Positions 50,299 through 53,247 of a stretch of DNA of 64,000 nucleotides are shown here, in pieces (the stretch's first letter is position 1; every line of letters starts with the position of its first letter). Under the pieces are notes generated by a model. It saw only the letters and a list, made by a program, of their open reading frames with translations, was not told where the DNA came from and made no database searches. The position numbers and the translations under genes are program-made. The stretch spans positions 248,001-312,000 of the forward strand of contig CACVQR010000001.1 of NCBI GenBank assembly GCA_902756345.1, written 5' to 3'. The stretch comes from Fibrobacter succinogenes (GTDB lineage Bacteria; Fibrobacterota; Fibrobacteria; Fibrobacterales; Fibrobacteraceae).

Positions 50299-50637
50299 CT
50301 AATCTTTAACGCACCGCACAGAATAAGCCCATGTTTTATGGTTACCACTTATCAATGCATCATCGCTTGCAGCGGGTTCAAGTACACGATAATCTAGTTC
50401 CAATGCGAATGCGTGATAAATATTCTGTTCACTGGAATTCAAATTTTCACCCATCCATGTTTGCGAGCCAATGGTTACCGTCTTGTAGGTTTTTCCATCT
50501 CGGGAATCTATCATAGTCCCGTGAACAACAGTACTTGGGTCTACCCAAACATACTCCGGGCCGGTACTACTTTCACTATCATTACCACAGGCCACCAAAC
50601 AGATGGAAATACTTAACAAAAACGTCAATTTTTTCAT
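50299..50637 (-). CDS. Short lipoprotein with remnant FISUMP domain
   Basis: This 112-residue protein has a lipoprotein signal (LSISICLVACGND, Cys18). The start of the Fibrobacter paralogous domain is present (GTMIDSRDGKTYKTVTIGSQTWMGENLN), as is its usual end (WAYSVRCVKD). Full FISUMP proteins are about twice as long, so the middle of the domain appears to be deleted in frame. The ATG follows the upstream ATPase stop without a gap (TAGATG), with GGGAG six bases before it. This family is the strongest taxonomic clue in the window. Function is unknown, on the cell surface. Confidence 0.75.
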   Translation of the reverse strand: MKKLTFLLSISICLVACGNDSESSTGPEYVWVDPSTVVHGTMIDSRDGKTYKTVTIGSQTWMGENLNSSEQNIYHAFALELDYRVLEPAASDDALISGNHKTWAYSVRCVKD

Positions 50638-51768
50638 CTAAAACTCCCGTTCCAGCCAGCGAGACAGGAATACATCATAAACTTGGTATTCCTGTTTTTC
50701 TTTGGATTCAAGCGTCAACAGCAATTCCTTTTCTTGCAAGGATTCTGCCGCACGGCGAGCGTTCGTGGAGCTACCAATGTTGTATTTCTTCAAAAACACG
50801 GTTGATGTCAGCTTACTCACGCTACCTTCTTTTGCTACGGCCACCAAAAGCAACCATTGCTGACGAGTAAGGAGTTCTCGGTACTGCAAAAAGTAATCGG
50901 ATTCTCTTTCTAGAATCCTGTTTGCGGCATTTTTCACCACATCAATAGTCACGTTGCCACCGACAGCAAACACTTCGTTGCAAAGGGTCTGGGTATAAAA
51001 TGTGTGGCGACGCGTCCACTCCAAAATCCAATCAACAGCACCGGCATCAATCGTTCTTCCCACCTCGGAAAAATGGCCCCGAATAAATTCAGCATACTTA
51101 TCGGAATCGATTTTTCCAAGTGTCAGCAGTTTGGTGCTAGAAAAGAACGGACGACCCGCACTTGTAAACATTTCGGCCATCAACTTCTTCTTACTGCCAC
51201 AGAATATAAAACGAATGTTTTGCATAGACTGCGTATAAGTTCTAAGCAAGGCTTCGGCTGTCTTTTCGGGATACTCCGTAATTTGTTGGAATTCGTCAAA
51301 CACCAACACAACCGGCTTTTCGCGGGTATTCAAAAATTCAAGCAGACTTTTGAGAGTCCATTCCTTTTCCGAAACTGTTCCGTAGTTAAACTGCAACTGC
51401 GGCGAACCCGAAATGGAATCATAAGTAAGCGTGGGGCGAAGCGTCTTCAAAAAAGTTACGAACCCTTTGCCAATAGATGTCTTTTCAGGAAACTTGATCA
51501 GGATGGCTTCTGCCAGGGTCTTGGTAAAATCTTCCAAGGTCAACGTCGCGAATATGTCAACATAGAGAGTTTCGTAATTCAGGCGCCGACGCTTCATTTC
51601 GGCAAAGGTATGCAAAATCAATCCCGTCTTTCCGTACTTACGCGGAGAGACCAGTGTCGTATCGGCACCGTTCTGAATATTCAATATAATAGCGGCAGTT
51701 TCGTCATCTCTGTCGCAGAAATAGGCCGGCGATTTATACCCTTTGACAATGAACGGATTTTCTTGCAT
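50638..51768 (-). CDS. AAA ATPase with C-terminal winged helix (archaeal-ATPase type)
   Basis: This 376-residue protein has a P-loop variant TLVSPRKYGKTGL at about residues 39-51, a Walker B VVLVFDEFQQI at about 153-163 and a sensor-like RFIFCGSKKKLM. A C-terminal winged-helix region (QWLLLVAVAKEGSVSKLTSTVFLKKYNIGSSTNARRAAESLQEKELL) follows. It belongs to the widespread archaeal-type or DUF234-related ATPases, whose role is not known. A very long perfect inverted repeat (51793-51833) lies 25 bp before its start. Its stop codon abuts the small lipoprotein start. Confidence 0.75.
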   Translation of the reverse strand: MQENPFIVKGYKSPAYFCDRDDETAAIILNIQNGADTTLVSPRKYGKTGLILHTFAEMKRRRLNYETLYVDIFATLTLEDFTKTLAEAILIKFPEKTSIGKGFVTFLKTLRPTLTYDSISGSPQLQFNYGTVSEKEWTLKSLLEFLNTREKPVVLVFDEFQQITEYPEKTAEALLRTYTQSMQNIRFIFCGSKKKLMAEMFTSAGRPFFSSTKLLTLGKIDSDKYAEFIRGHFSEVGRTIDAGAVDWILEWTRRHTFYTQTLCNEVFAVGGNVTIDVVKNAANRILERESDYFLQYRELLTRQQWLLLVAVAKEGSVSKLTSTVFLKKYNIGSSTNARRAAESLQEKELLLTLESKEKQEYQVYDVFLSRWLEREF

Positions 51769-51792
51769 AAAGACCTCTCTATACTAATATAC

Positions 51793-51833
51793 AAAAATTG
51801 CCTAAAATAGGCAACCTATTTTAGGCAATTTTT
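51793..51833. promoter_or_regulatory. 41-bp perfect inverted repeat upstream of the ATPase gene
   Basis: Two 19-bp arms (AAAAATTGCCTAAAATAGG and its exact complement) are separated by CAA. T-runs end the structure on both strands. It could be a terminator pair, an autoregulatory operator or the end of a mobile unit. Confidence 0.8.
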
Positions 51834-51932
51834 CAAAGTCGGCCCAAAACAGCCATTTTTCCCGCCCCCAAAGCCAGCGGCCCCCTAAAATGCTATTTTT
51901 TCTCCCATAATCAATTACCAAGGTTTTTTAAT

Positions 51933-53105
51933 ATGCGCGTACTCGTTCTTAATTGCGGCAGCTCCTCGGTCAAGTTCGCCGTTATCGACACCCAGACCAA
52001 AGAATCCATCTCCAGCGGCCTCGTCGAAAATATCGGCGTGAACGGCCACGTGAAGGCCAAGGGCCCGGTCGGCAACATCGACTTCAATTTCGACTGCCCC
52101 ACCCACGCCGAAGCCGTTGCCGAAGTGCAGAAGTTCCTCGCCGAACAGAAGCTCACCGACACCATCGAAGCCATCGGCCACCGCGTGGTGCACGGCGGCA
52201 AGTACGTCAAGAGCGAGCGCGTCACGCAGGAAGTCATTGACTACATCCGCAGCATCACGCTGTTCGCCCCGCTCCACGAACCCGCACACGCCACCGGCAT
52301 GGAATGCGCCACCAAGTTCTTCCCGGGCCTCCCGCAGGTCGCCGTGTTCGACACCGCCTTCCACCAGACCATGCCGCGCAAGGCCTACCTCTATGGCATC
52401 CCCTACAAGTTCTACGAAGAAGACAAGATCCGCCGCTACGGCGCCCATGGCACGAGCCACCGCTTCGTGACCGGCGAAGCCGCCAAGATTCTCGGCAAAA
52501 AGCCGGAAGACTGCTGCTTCATTACCGCCCACCTCGGTAACGGTTCCAGCTGCTCCGCCATTTTGAACGGCCAGTGCGTTGACACCACCATGGGCTTCAC
52601 CCCGCTCGAGGGCCTCATCATGGGCACCCGCTCCGGCTCCCTTGACCCGGCCATCCTCTTCTTCATCAGCAAAAAATACGGTTACGATATCGACCGCCTC
52701 GACAAGCTCGTGAACAAGGAATCGGGCCTGCTTGGCCTCTCCGGACTCTCTAACGACATGCGCACCCTGACGCAGGCCGCAAGCGAAGGCCACGTGGGTG
52801 CACAGATCGCCCTCGAAACCTTCGCCTACAGGCTCACCCGCGAAATCGGCGGCATCGCCATGGCTCTCCCGCGCATCGACGCGCTGGTGTTCACCGGCGG
52901 TATCGGCGAGAACAGCAAGCTTGTCCGCAAGATGGCCATGGACAACCTCAAAATTCTCGGCTACCAGATCGACGAAGCCCGCAACGAGAAGAACGGCAAG
53001 GAATCCGGCCACATCATCAGTAAGGACGGCACCCCGACCGCGATGGTTGTTGCGACGAACGAGGAACTTCTCATCGCCCTCGACACCGAAGCGCTGGTGA
53101 AATAA
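51933..53105 (+). CDS. ackA: Acetate kinase
   Basis: This 390-residue enzyme shows the full acetate-kinase pattern: MRVLVLNCGSSSVKFAVID, GHRVVHGG, FDTAFHQTMP, HLGNGSSCSAI, MGFTPLEGLIMGTRSG and FTGGIGENS. It interconverts acetyl phosphate and acetate with ATP, which fits a fermenting anaerobe. The gene is very rich in C at third positions, as expected for a highly expressed gene here. No phosphotransacetylase gene is next to it. It ends with a strong terminator. Confidence 0.96.
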   Translation: MRVLVLNCGSSSVKFAVIDTQTKESISSGLVENIGVNGHVKAKGPVGNIDFNFDCPTHAEAVAEVQKFLAEQKLTDTIEAIGHRVVHGGKYVKSERVTQEVIDYIRSITLFAPLHEPAHATGMECATKFFPGLPQVAVFDTAFHQTMPRKAYLYGIPYKFYEEDKIRRYGAHGTSHRFVTGEAAKILGKKPEDCCFITAHLGNGSSCSAILNGQCVDTTMGFTPLEGLIMGTRSGSLDPAILFFISKKYGYDIDRLDKLVNKESGLLGLSGLSNDMRTLTQAASEGHVGAQIALETFAYRLTREIGGIAMALPRIDALVFTGGIGENSKLVRKMAMDNLKILGYQIDEARNEKNGKESGHIISKDGTPTAMVVATNEELLIALDTEALVK

Positions 53106-53111
53106 GTTAGG

Positions 53112-53247
53112 AATTCAGAGTTCGGAATTCAGATTTGATTTCCGAACTGAATTTTCAATATTTATACAATTAAATGCTCCGCTTTAGCGGAGCATTCTTT
53201 GTTAATCCTGAATTTTTAATTCTGAATTCTGACTTCTGAAATCTGAA
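53112..53247. terminator. Terminator region between ackA and the surface-protein gene
   Basis: AATGCTCCGC, loop TTTA, GCGGAGCATT (53173-53196) followed by CTTTG is a strong bidirectional terminator for the convergent genes. It is flanked on both sides by repeated GAATTC/TTCAGA-rich words that form weaker inverted repeats. Confidence 0.8.

Follow-up and report, generated by a model that had tools for sequence, protein, structure and literature searches.

A clade-specific half-site array upstream of a PF01637 AAA+ ATPase gene in Fibrobacter succinogenes as a candidate autoregulatory operator

What is the function of a long, mismatch-free palindrome placed directly before the start of an AAA+ ATPase gene? 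The question arises from a stretch of 64,000 nucleotides from Fibrobacter succinogenes (hereafter the window), in which such a dyad lies between two divergent gene starts, that of the ATPase on the minus strand and that of a gene at 51933 (+) which appears acetate-kinase-like from its sequence. Here we describe the dyad and its neighbouring gene, compare the upstream regions of related ATPase genes and weigh the explanations that could account for the site.

The dyad, the predicted promoter and the ATPase

The geometry given in an earlier note on this DNA, a 41-bp dyad with 19-bp arms free of mismatches and a 3-base loop, was confirmed, the arms (51793–51811 and 51815–51833) being 19 nt long, 100% complementary and separated by 3 nt. 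The dyad ranks first among the 11 inverted repeats listed in the window (arms of at least 12 and spacing of at most 60 bases), where the next fully complementary pair has arms of 12 nt only, and when the 120 bp preceding the ATPase gene were dinucleotide-shuffled, none of 60 rounds reached its score. It is separated from the ATPase start codon at 51768 by 24 bases, so that the distance of 25 bp given earlier was right to within one base. The core of the dyad contains four half-sites whose orientation alternates and which follow one another at exact steps of 7 bp, with a 14-bp direct period on the minus strand (TTGCCTA-AAATAGG / TTGCCTA-TTTTAGG), a best lag of 14 and dyad axes at −45 and −38 relative to the ATPase ATG. 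On sequence grounds, the dyad appears better read as an array of four alternating half-sites than as one palindrome.

As expected of an autoregulatory operator, the dyad overlaps a predicted promoter of the ATPase gene itself, TTGCCT-17-TATATT (51814 to 51786, minus strand). The second unit of the array on the minus strand coincides with the −35-like TTGCCT, 17 bp before TATATT, and the array thus spans the −35 region and ends beside the −10. The pattern TT[GA]NNN-17-TATATT occurs within 110 bp upstream at 31 of 39 related loci, which are mostly from Fibrobacter and include near-copies and two loci of another family of the same class, whereas none of 1065 control segments contains it. At the window locus (L003) and at L004, L008, L012, L013 and L018, the best-scoring promoter runs into the inverted repeat, which is not so at L005 and L022; among other members, L061 and L084 for example have a promoter-like match just upstream of the repeats. 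The promoter scan is uninformative for phyla with other promoter types. Ahead of the acetate kinase gene, a AAAATGCTATT(A/T)TT stretch (51885–51905) recurs in several relatives that lack the dyad, and the acetate kinase gene may thus have a promoter of its own.

The neighbouring gene encodes a protein that matches PF01637 (ATPase_2) at 37.9 bits against a gathering score of 33.2, in agreement with its earlier description as an archaeal-type AAA ATPase, and a 99%-identical ATPase is found in a Fibrobacter succinogenes assembly (L035). Residues G46, K47, D158, E159, G191 and S192 are invariant in 51 aligned sequences and represent the P-loop, Walker B and sensor residues. The AlphaFold2 model of the protein (mean pLDDT 94.6, pTM 0.90) ends in helices 302–314, 323–329 and 334–346 followed by strands 350–355 and 358–363, a secondary structure that we read as a winged helix. 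The closest solved folds, both archaeal ATPases, are 2QEN (Z 24.4, over 330 residues) and 2FNA (Z 23.0, over 333 residues), followed by archaeal Cdc6/Orc1 proteins (Z 16.7–18.7), two of them DNA-bound, and further down by NLR/CED-4 proteins, TnsC and MuB; chain C of 8BOB, an entry on maltose-system regulation, is also among the fold matches. A phmmer search of the ATPase against PDB sequences gave no match at E 1. Assignment as a defence gene by profile was rejected on account of weak matches throughout (PADLOC PDC-S01 at E 7e-4 and mad8 at E 6e-3, and one weak match apiece in NCBIfam and PHROGs), with the proviso that failure to appear in these searches does not prove absence. A short lipoprotein-like gene (50299–50637) begins directly after the ATPase stop.

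Table 1. Coordinates of the dyad, its half-sites, the predicted promoter elements and the ATPase gene in the window
Feature	Position	Strand	Description
41-bp dyad	51793..51833	.	19-bp perfect arms and 3-nt loop; candidate operator array
Putative half-sites	51801..51825	.	CCTA 51801-51804, TAGG 51808-51811, CCTA 51815-51818, TAGG 51822-51825
Predicted −35-like hexamer of the ATPase promoter	51809..51814	-	TTGCCT, within the dyad
Predicted −10-like hexamer of the ATPase promoter	51786..51791	-	TATATT, 17 bp from the −35, adjoining the dyad
AAA+ ATPase gene	50638..51768	-	376 aa, PF01637
Predicted C-terminal winged helix-turn-helix	50680..50865	-	Residues 302-363, AlphaFold2 model; proposed reader of the array
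Predicted recognition helix	50731..50769	-	Residues 334-346, AlphaFold2 model

Half-site arrays upstream of related ATPase genes

Homologues were drawn from 60 genomes including that of the window, 30 of which have a match to the ATPase, from 79 loci of a species-level genome collection and from 15 further stretches. Their 119 proteins were reduced to 54 non-redundant ones at <65% identity, three of which have odd protein ends (L045, L073 and L107). Duplicates or partial genes were dropped before the inverted-repeat test (L001, L002, L025, L034, L109, L112 and L117), and L028 and L110 were left out, the former for insufficient upstream DNA and the latter because no inverted repeat was found. 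At 59 of the 119 loci, near-copies included, none of 60 shuffles reached the best inverted repeat of the 120-bp upstream region, and inverted repeats unreached by any shuffle precede 24 of the 54 homologues compared with 6 of 65 neighbouring genes. The letters of these repeats vary between loci (TTTAACATTTTGTATATTACAAAATGTTAAA in L013–L016, AAAATTACACATTTTGCGTTACGCAAAATGTGTAATTTT in L021 and ATTACGCAAATTGCGTAACGCAACTTGCGTAAT in L069).

Periodicity was scored as an 8-of-10 match at a given lag in the 100 bp upstream of each gene. Lag 14 was recovered in 54% of the 54 homologues and in 3% of 1120 segments taken as controls from these loci, accompanied by an echo at lag 28 (19% versus 2%) and by a second class at lag 15 (22% versus 5%). 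Among lags 9 to 21, the best was 14 in 29 and 15 in 11 homologues, giving 40 of 54 with either lag, compared with a mean of 5.5 and a maximum of 11 in 200 rounds of dinucleotide shuffling and with 5 of 65 upstreams of neighbouring genes. The test was failed by 14 of the 54 homologue upstreams. Loci failing here or among the paralogues described below include L013 and L020, which have one significant strong dyad each, and L071, whose sole inverted repeat is 79 bp away, and nothing convincing was seen upstream of L110, L215 and L238. L045, L059 and L079 have a strong 14-bp period even though their best inverted repeats were reached by 20, 18 and 36 of 60 shuffles, respectively.

Distances between dyad axes in 91 upstreams peak at 7–8 bp (22 cases compared with 1.1 in dinucleotide shuffles) and at 14–15 bp (19 compared with 0.8). 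A first version of this test was too strict, and a loosened version run with single-base shuffles was redone with dinucleotide shuffles on the same counts. The two peaks fit a continuous array of alternating half-sites. What the relatives share is the spacing of half-sites (7–8 bp between axes and 14–15 bp as direct repeats) and not the shape of a palindrome, and a cruciform is unlikely as the functional form given that the period persists in some relatives that have no significant palindrome. The proposal that selection maintains the dyad stands in so far as the dyad is tied to this ATPase group and looks maintained, but not for the cruciform shape as the maintained feature. In the genomes of L046, L063 and L065 (G093, G100 and G101), two clusters of sites lie ~55–95 bp apart upstream of the ATPase gene, which is of the TTACGCA type in all three, an arrangement that could permit DNA looping.

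The period, having been seen first in these loci, was then tested on paralogues from 31 genomes. Of 58 paralogue rows without a locus, 40 mostly better-scoring ones were taken first (37 new, 3 already seen), and 28 of the 37 new paralogues passed the test (best lag 14 in 12 and 15 in 16; shuffles mean 4.8, maximum 11). A second batch comprising 15 of the other 18 rows, mostly lower-scoring (12 new, 3 already seen, 3 fragments omitted), yielded the period in 1 of 12 new paralogues. Taken together, 29 of 49 paralogues passed and 20 failed (dinucleotide shuffles mean 5.2, maximum 11), with 26 of 33 passing at E ≤1e-70 and 3 of 16 at E >1e-67. The array thus marks a subfamily of nearer relatives and not the whole Pfam family, and the notion that it marks all family members in a genome was dropped. 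Within these bounds, the link suggested in the earlier note is borne out, as related genes carry dyads or arrays at the same place far above chance, more weakly so in remote members; a random scatter of dyads unlinked to the ATPase family is not what was found.

Judged by eye, several remote paralogues seem to start inside or closely behind another gene, and long palindromes of other designs stand upstream of L242, L264 and L268, which are remote and show no 14/15-bp period (for example ACAAAAATGTTTTGCAACTTTGCAAAACATTTTTGT in L242 and TTGATACTTATCAATATCGATAAGTATCAA in L268). L166 and L167, two more PF01637 genes in the genome of the window (contigs 7 and 18; products of 468 and 473 aa), probably encode a nuclease-like domain at the C-terminus, and repeated palindromic motifs can be seen by eye before their starts (TTTAGTCTAAAT/ATTTAGACTAAA; several TTTTGGCG).

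Spelling and genomic distribution of the site

A tree of 71 proteins labelled by site spelling revealed a close correspondence between protein and site. The labels (TTACGCA 21, TTAACA 6, CGTAACGA 4, other 39, plus the window) were assigned by pattern, complemented by a hand list for TTAACA, and need 8 changes on the tree compared with a mean of 28.3 for shuffled labels, none of 200 shuffles being equally low; the TTACGCA label needs 4 compared with 18.4. All but two of the 21 TTACGCA rows fall within one 20-row protein clade, the hosts of which belong to Kiritimatiellota, Verrucomicrobiota, Planctomycetota, Myxococcota, Thermodesulfobacteriota and Melainabacteria. As this clade spans phyla, the spelling of the site goes with the protein and not with the phylum of the host. 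Most TTACGCA rows have a recognition helix that reads S-N-(A/V)-Q-R-A or nearly so. An exception is L088, in which TTACGCA sites go with a dissimilar recognition helix and which sits on a long separate branch outside the clade. The motifs overlap in L036, which is labelled TTACGCA though its sister L041 is labelled CGTAACGA.

Site similarity correlates with identity of the ATPase domain (r 0.47) and of the winged helix (r 0.46). The ATPase domain tracks the site at least as well as the winged helix, and much of the link is thus common descent, with a small independent share for the winged helix (partial r 0.12, 0 of 1000 permutations). When site similarity was first measured by shared 8-mers at 51 loci, the recognition helix added nothing beyond the ATPase domain (326 of 2000 permutations). 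A second measure, devised after the first had failed and based on a log-odds local match of repeat segments (69 of 79 loci having one), gave a partial r of 0.13 for the recognition helix (0 of 1000 permutations) and a larger one of 0.35 for the ATPase domain given the recognition helix. Among pairs with an ATPase identity of at least 0.5, sites match in 0% of the 11 pairs with a recognition-helix identity <0.3, and in the bins above this the matching share is 50% (14 pairs), 68% (25), 67% (55) and 49% (39). Spelling also differs within a single genome, as the three own-genome paralogues L003, L004 and L005 have three different arrays, that of L005 with a 15-bp period and an inverted repeat which alone was reached by 10 of 60 shuffles.

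Sites are close to unique in the genomes searched. With up to 3 mismatches, the 31-bp core of the dyad occurs at one place in the 3.36-Mb genome of the window, which excludes a dispersed repeat of the REP or MITE kind. The motif CCTAWWWTAGG alone occurs at 5 places in this genome, 2 of them within the dyad, compared with 14 for a reversed control pattern. In 11 genomes searched for TTACGCANNNTGCGTAA with at most one mismatch, among them 8 with an ATPase of the TTACGCA type, every one of the 8 exact sites is at the ATPase; these sites come from 7 of the 8 genomes and are no more than ~112 bp from where the ATPase match starts. In the remaining genome of the 8, G100, the ATPase has three one-mismatch sites instead. 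One-mismatch sites numbered 15, of which 7 are at the ATPase and 8 elsewhere (reversed control 6 sites in all), and ATPases of this type may have a few other targets. The near-uniqueness of sites at the ATPase makes the array look like a control site of its own gene rather than a regulon site.

We posit that the dyad is probably a private autoregulatory operator of the adjacent ATPase gene, bound by the winged helix of the ATPase itself. The proposal draws on the array with its spacing and its place in nearer relatives, on the overlap with the predicted promoter, on the tie to protein clades and on the near-uniqueness of the site. Winged helices of several protomers would dock on half-sites every 7 bp in alternating orientation, and the docked protomers would cover the −35 region, abut the −10 and block or gate transcription of their own gene, so that binding of the ATPase would repress its synthesis. 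How firmly the protomers hold the array would depend on nucleotide state and oligomerisation, which would place the switch under the control of ATP. Site and protein would evolve as a pair, giving each clade its own spelling. As the only strong site found is the ATPase's own promoter, a self-contained switch is favoured over a regulator of host genes.

A bolder reading, which we offer tentatively and hold to be doubtful, is that these ATPases are phylum-crossing Orc/Cdc6-like AAA+ one-gene modules, each recognising about one genomic place, the 14/15-bp array of alternating half-sites at its own promoter. An ATP-gated helical oligomer would form round the DNA, and since 14 bp correspond to 4/3 of a turn, three repeats would close on four turns. 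Protein and array would diverge jointly until the pairs were mutually blind, so several copies could share one cell, and each module might act as a selfish or alarm-like switch instead of regulating host genes.

Competing explanations and known systems

The autoregulatory operator has to be weighed against an unlikely alternative, namely that ATPase and array form a small mobile module and that the array serves its assembly, replication, maintenance or integration as a cis-acting site, the promoter overlap being secondary. Repeats beside Cdc6/Orc1 or plasmid initiator genes are the model for such a module. It would agree with the fold, for which Cdc6/Orc1 proteins are the next matches and TnsC and MuB lower ones, with iterated sites beside the gene and with the patchy occurrence of the gene among the 60 genomes. 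Plasmid records containing a relative number 21 of 72,556, and phage records 2 of 50,697. Of two plasmid copies examined, the one from Bacteroides neighbours an integrase gene and shows a clear 14-bp period; the other, like the phage copy examined, passes the lag test only weakly. Locus history was traced through the acetate kinase gene, matched in 59 of 61 genomes, for which 30 loci were given and 29 have a readable upstream (L144 begins inside the gene). ATPase and dyad are present at 3 of these 29 loci of the genus, that of the window included, and the three dyad-bearing genomes are those with a 99–100% identical ATPase. In one genome, G015, both flanks are retained (95.8% over 189 bp and 90.5% over 63 bp), with a different sequence of 112 bp standing where the window has the ATPase and dyad. 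The characterisation of the family as often mobile thus finds indirect support, from patchy presence, few plasmid and phage copies and this one ackA locus with flanks but no ATPase. Against a mobile module, however, a search allowing up to 3 mismatches places the array only once in its own genome, which leaves it without a matched far end. Such a module would also not need a promoter of sigma-70-like type to overlap the array repeatedly, and 21 plasmid records are few. Some flanking DNA is moreover common to 5 of the 6 Fibrobacter clusters compared (not L020/L021), which shows little sign of recent jumping in this genus.

Two further observations concern the surroundings of the locus. In G015 (L146), the two matching parts of the lipoprotein-like gene lie ~450 bp further apart, and the gene in the window may thus be internally shortened. 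A smaller inverted repeat (53119–53148; 13-nt arms, 92%) follows the acetate kinase gene.

Less probable still is that a different regulator of the host binds the site and governs expression of the ATPase or of the divergent acetate kinase gene. The position of the dyad between divergent starts would suit such a regulator, but the dyad is missing from 26 of the 29 readable acetate kinase loci of the genus. Furthermore, the site changes with ATPase clade inside one genome, as in the three arrays of L003, L004 and L005, and follows the protein tree across phyla.

We regard it as very improbable that the palindrome acts as a structure, either as a DNA cruciform or as an RNA hairpin serving as terminator or attenuator. 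Its perfect 19-bp arms invite this reading, and a terminator-like pattern was called on each strand; however, the dyad lies upstream of the predicted ATPase −10 and would be absent from the ATPase transcript, and, with a divergent gene start on either side, it has no gene 3' end at which termination could act. There is no Rfam match near a family cut-off, the three matches at E 0.18–0.89 being all far below, and an intrinsic terminator or RNA hairpin was rejected on position and Rfam together. A structural role is also at odds with the 14-bp period kept without a significant palindrome in L045, L059 and L079. An accidental palindrome in AT-rich promoter DNA has a negligible chance of being correct: homologue upstreams are indeed AT-rich (mean G+C 0.34 versus 0.49 in controls), but the shuffles of the window region never reached the dyad, and observed counts far above dinucleotide shuffles in homologues and paralogues alike contradict it at the subfamily level.

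No description of private clade-specific 14/15-bp arrays at PF01637 genes, nor of a role for ATPases of the window kind, was found in the open-licence PMC literature, including PMC5760070 and PMC4599002; with its scope set by open-licence papers, this search is weak evidence of novelty. A private array at its own promoter hands most of the nearer relatives sampled a predicted DNA target, making gel shift, footprint and protein–DNA structure directly feasible. Natural sets of these genes, three of them in the genome of the window, are candidate orthogonal protein–site pairs and offer a case for studying the joint divergence of an AAA+ protein and its site.

Among known systems, the closest in fold are SSO1545 (2FNA) and PABY2304 (2QEN), which we take to be PF01637 'archaeal' AAA+ ATPases. 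They share the overall fold of the window ATPase over about 330 residues, an AAA+ core followed by a winged helix, but are only 15–18% identical to it, and no cognate DNA site for either was found in the open-licence literature. Archaeal Cdc6/Orc1 proteins (2QBY, 2V1U and 1W5T) likewise combine an AAA+ core with a C-terminal winged helix, although fold alone shows no function, and their origin boxes are often beside their own gene. The window family differs from them in having private, clade-specific half-sites over a sigma-70-like promoter, and no Cdc6- or Orc-named model is among the five Pfam families listed for the ATPase at E 0.001.

STAND regulators such as MalT and IniR are nucleotide-driven switch proteins with a DNA-binding end, and they act on other genes and have an extra domain between their ATPase and DNA-binding parts. 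According to PMC5760070, IniR has an SSO1545-like ATPase domain, binds the iniBAC promoter and carries a further domain between its ATPase and DNA-binding parts. No separate intervening domain is apparent in the 376-residue model of the window ATPase, as judged by the order of secondary structure alone, and its only strong site found is its own promoter. Autoregulatory operators as such are ordinary, and the proposed arrangement resembles that of autorepressors with tandem palindromic operators in its repeated half-sites and in an operator over the gene's own promoter. It differs from these in that the proposed binder is an AAA+ ATPase, and in that the array alternates continuously at 7 bp (or 7+8 bp) with a spelling that is clade-specific across phyla.
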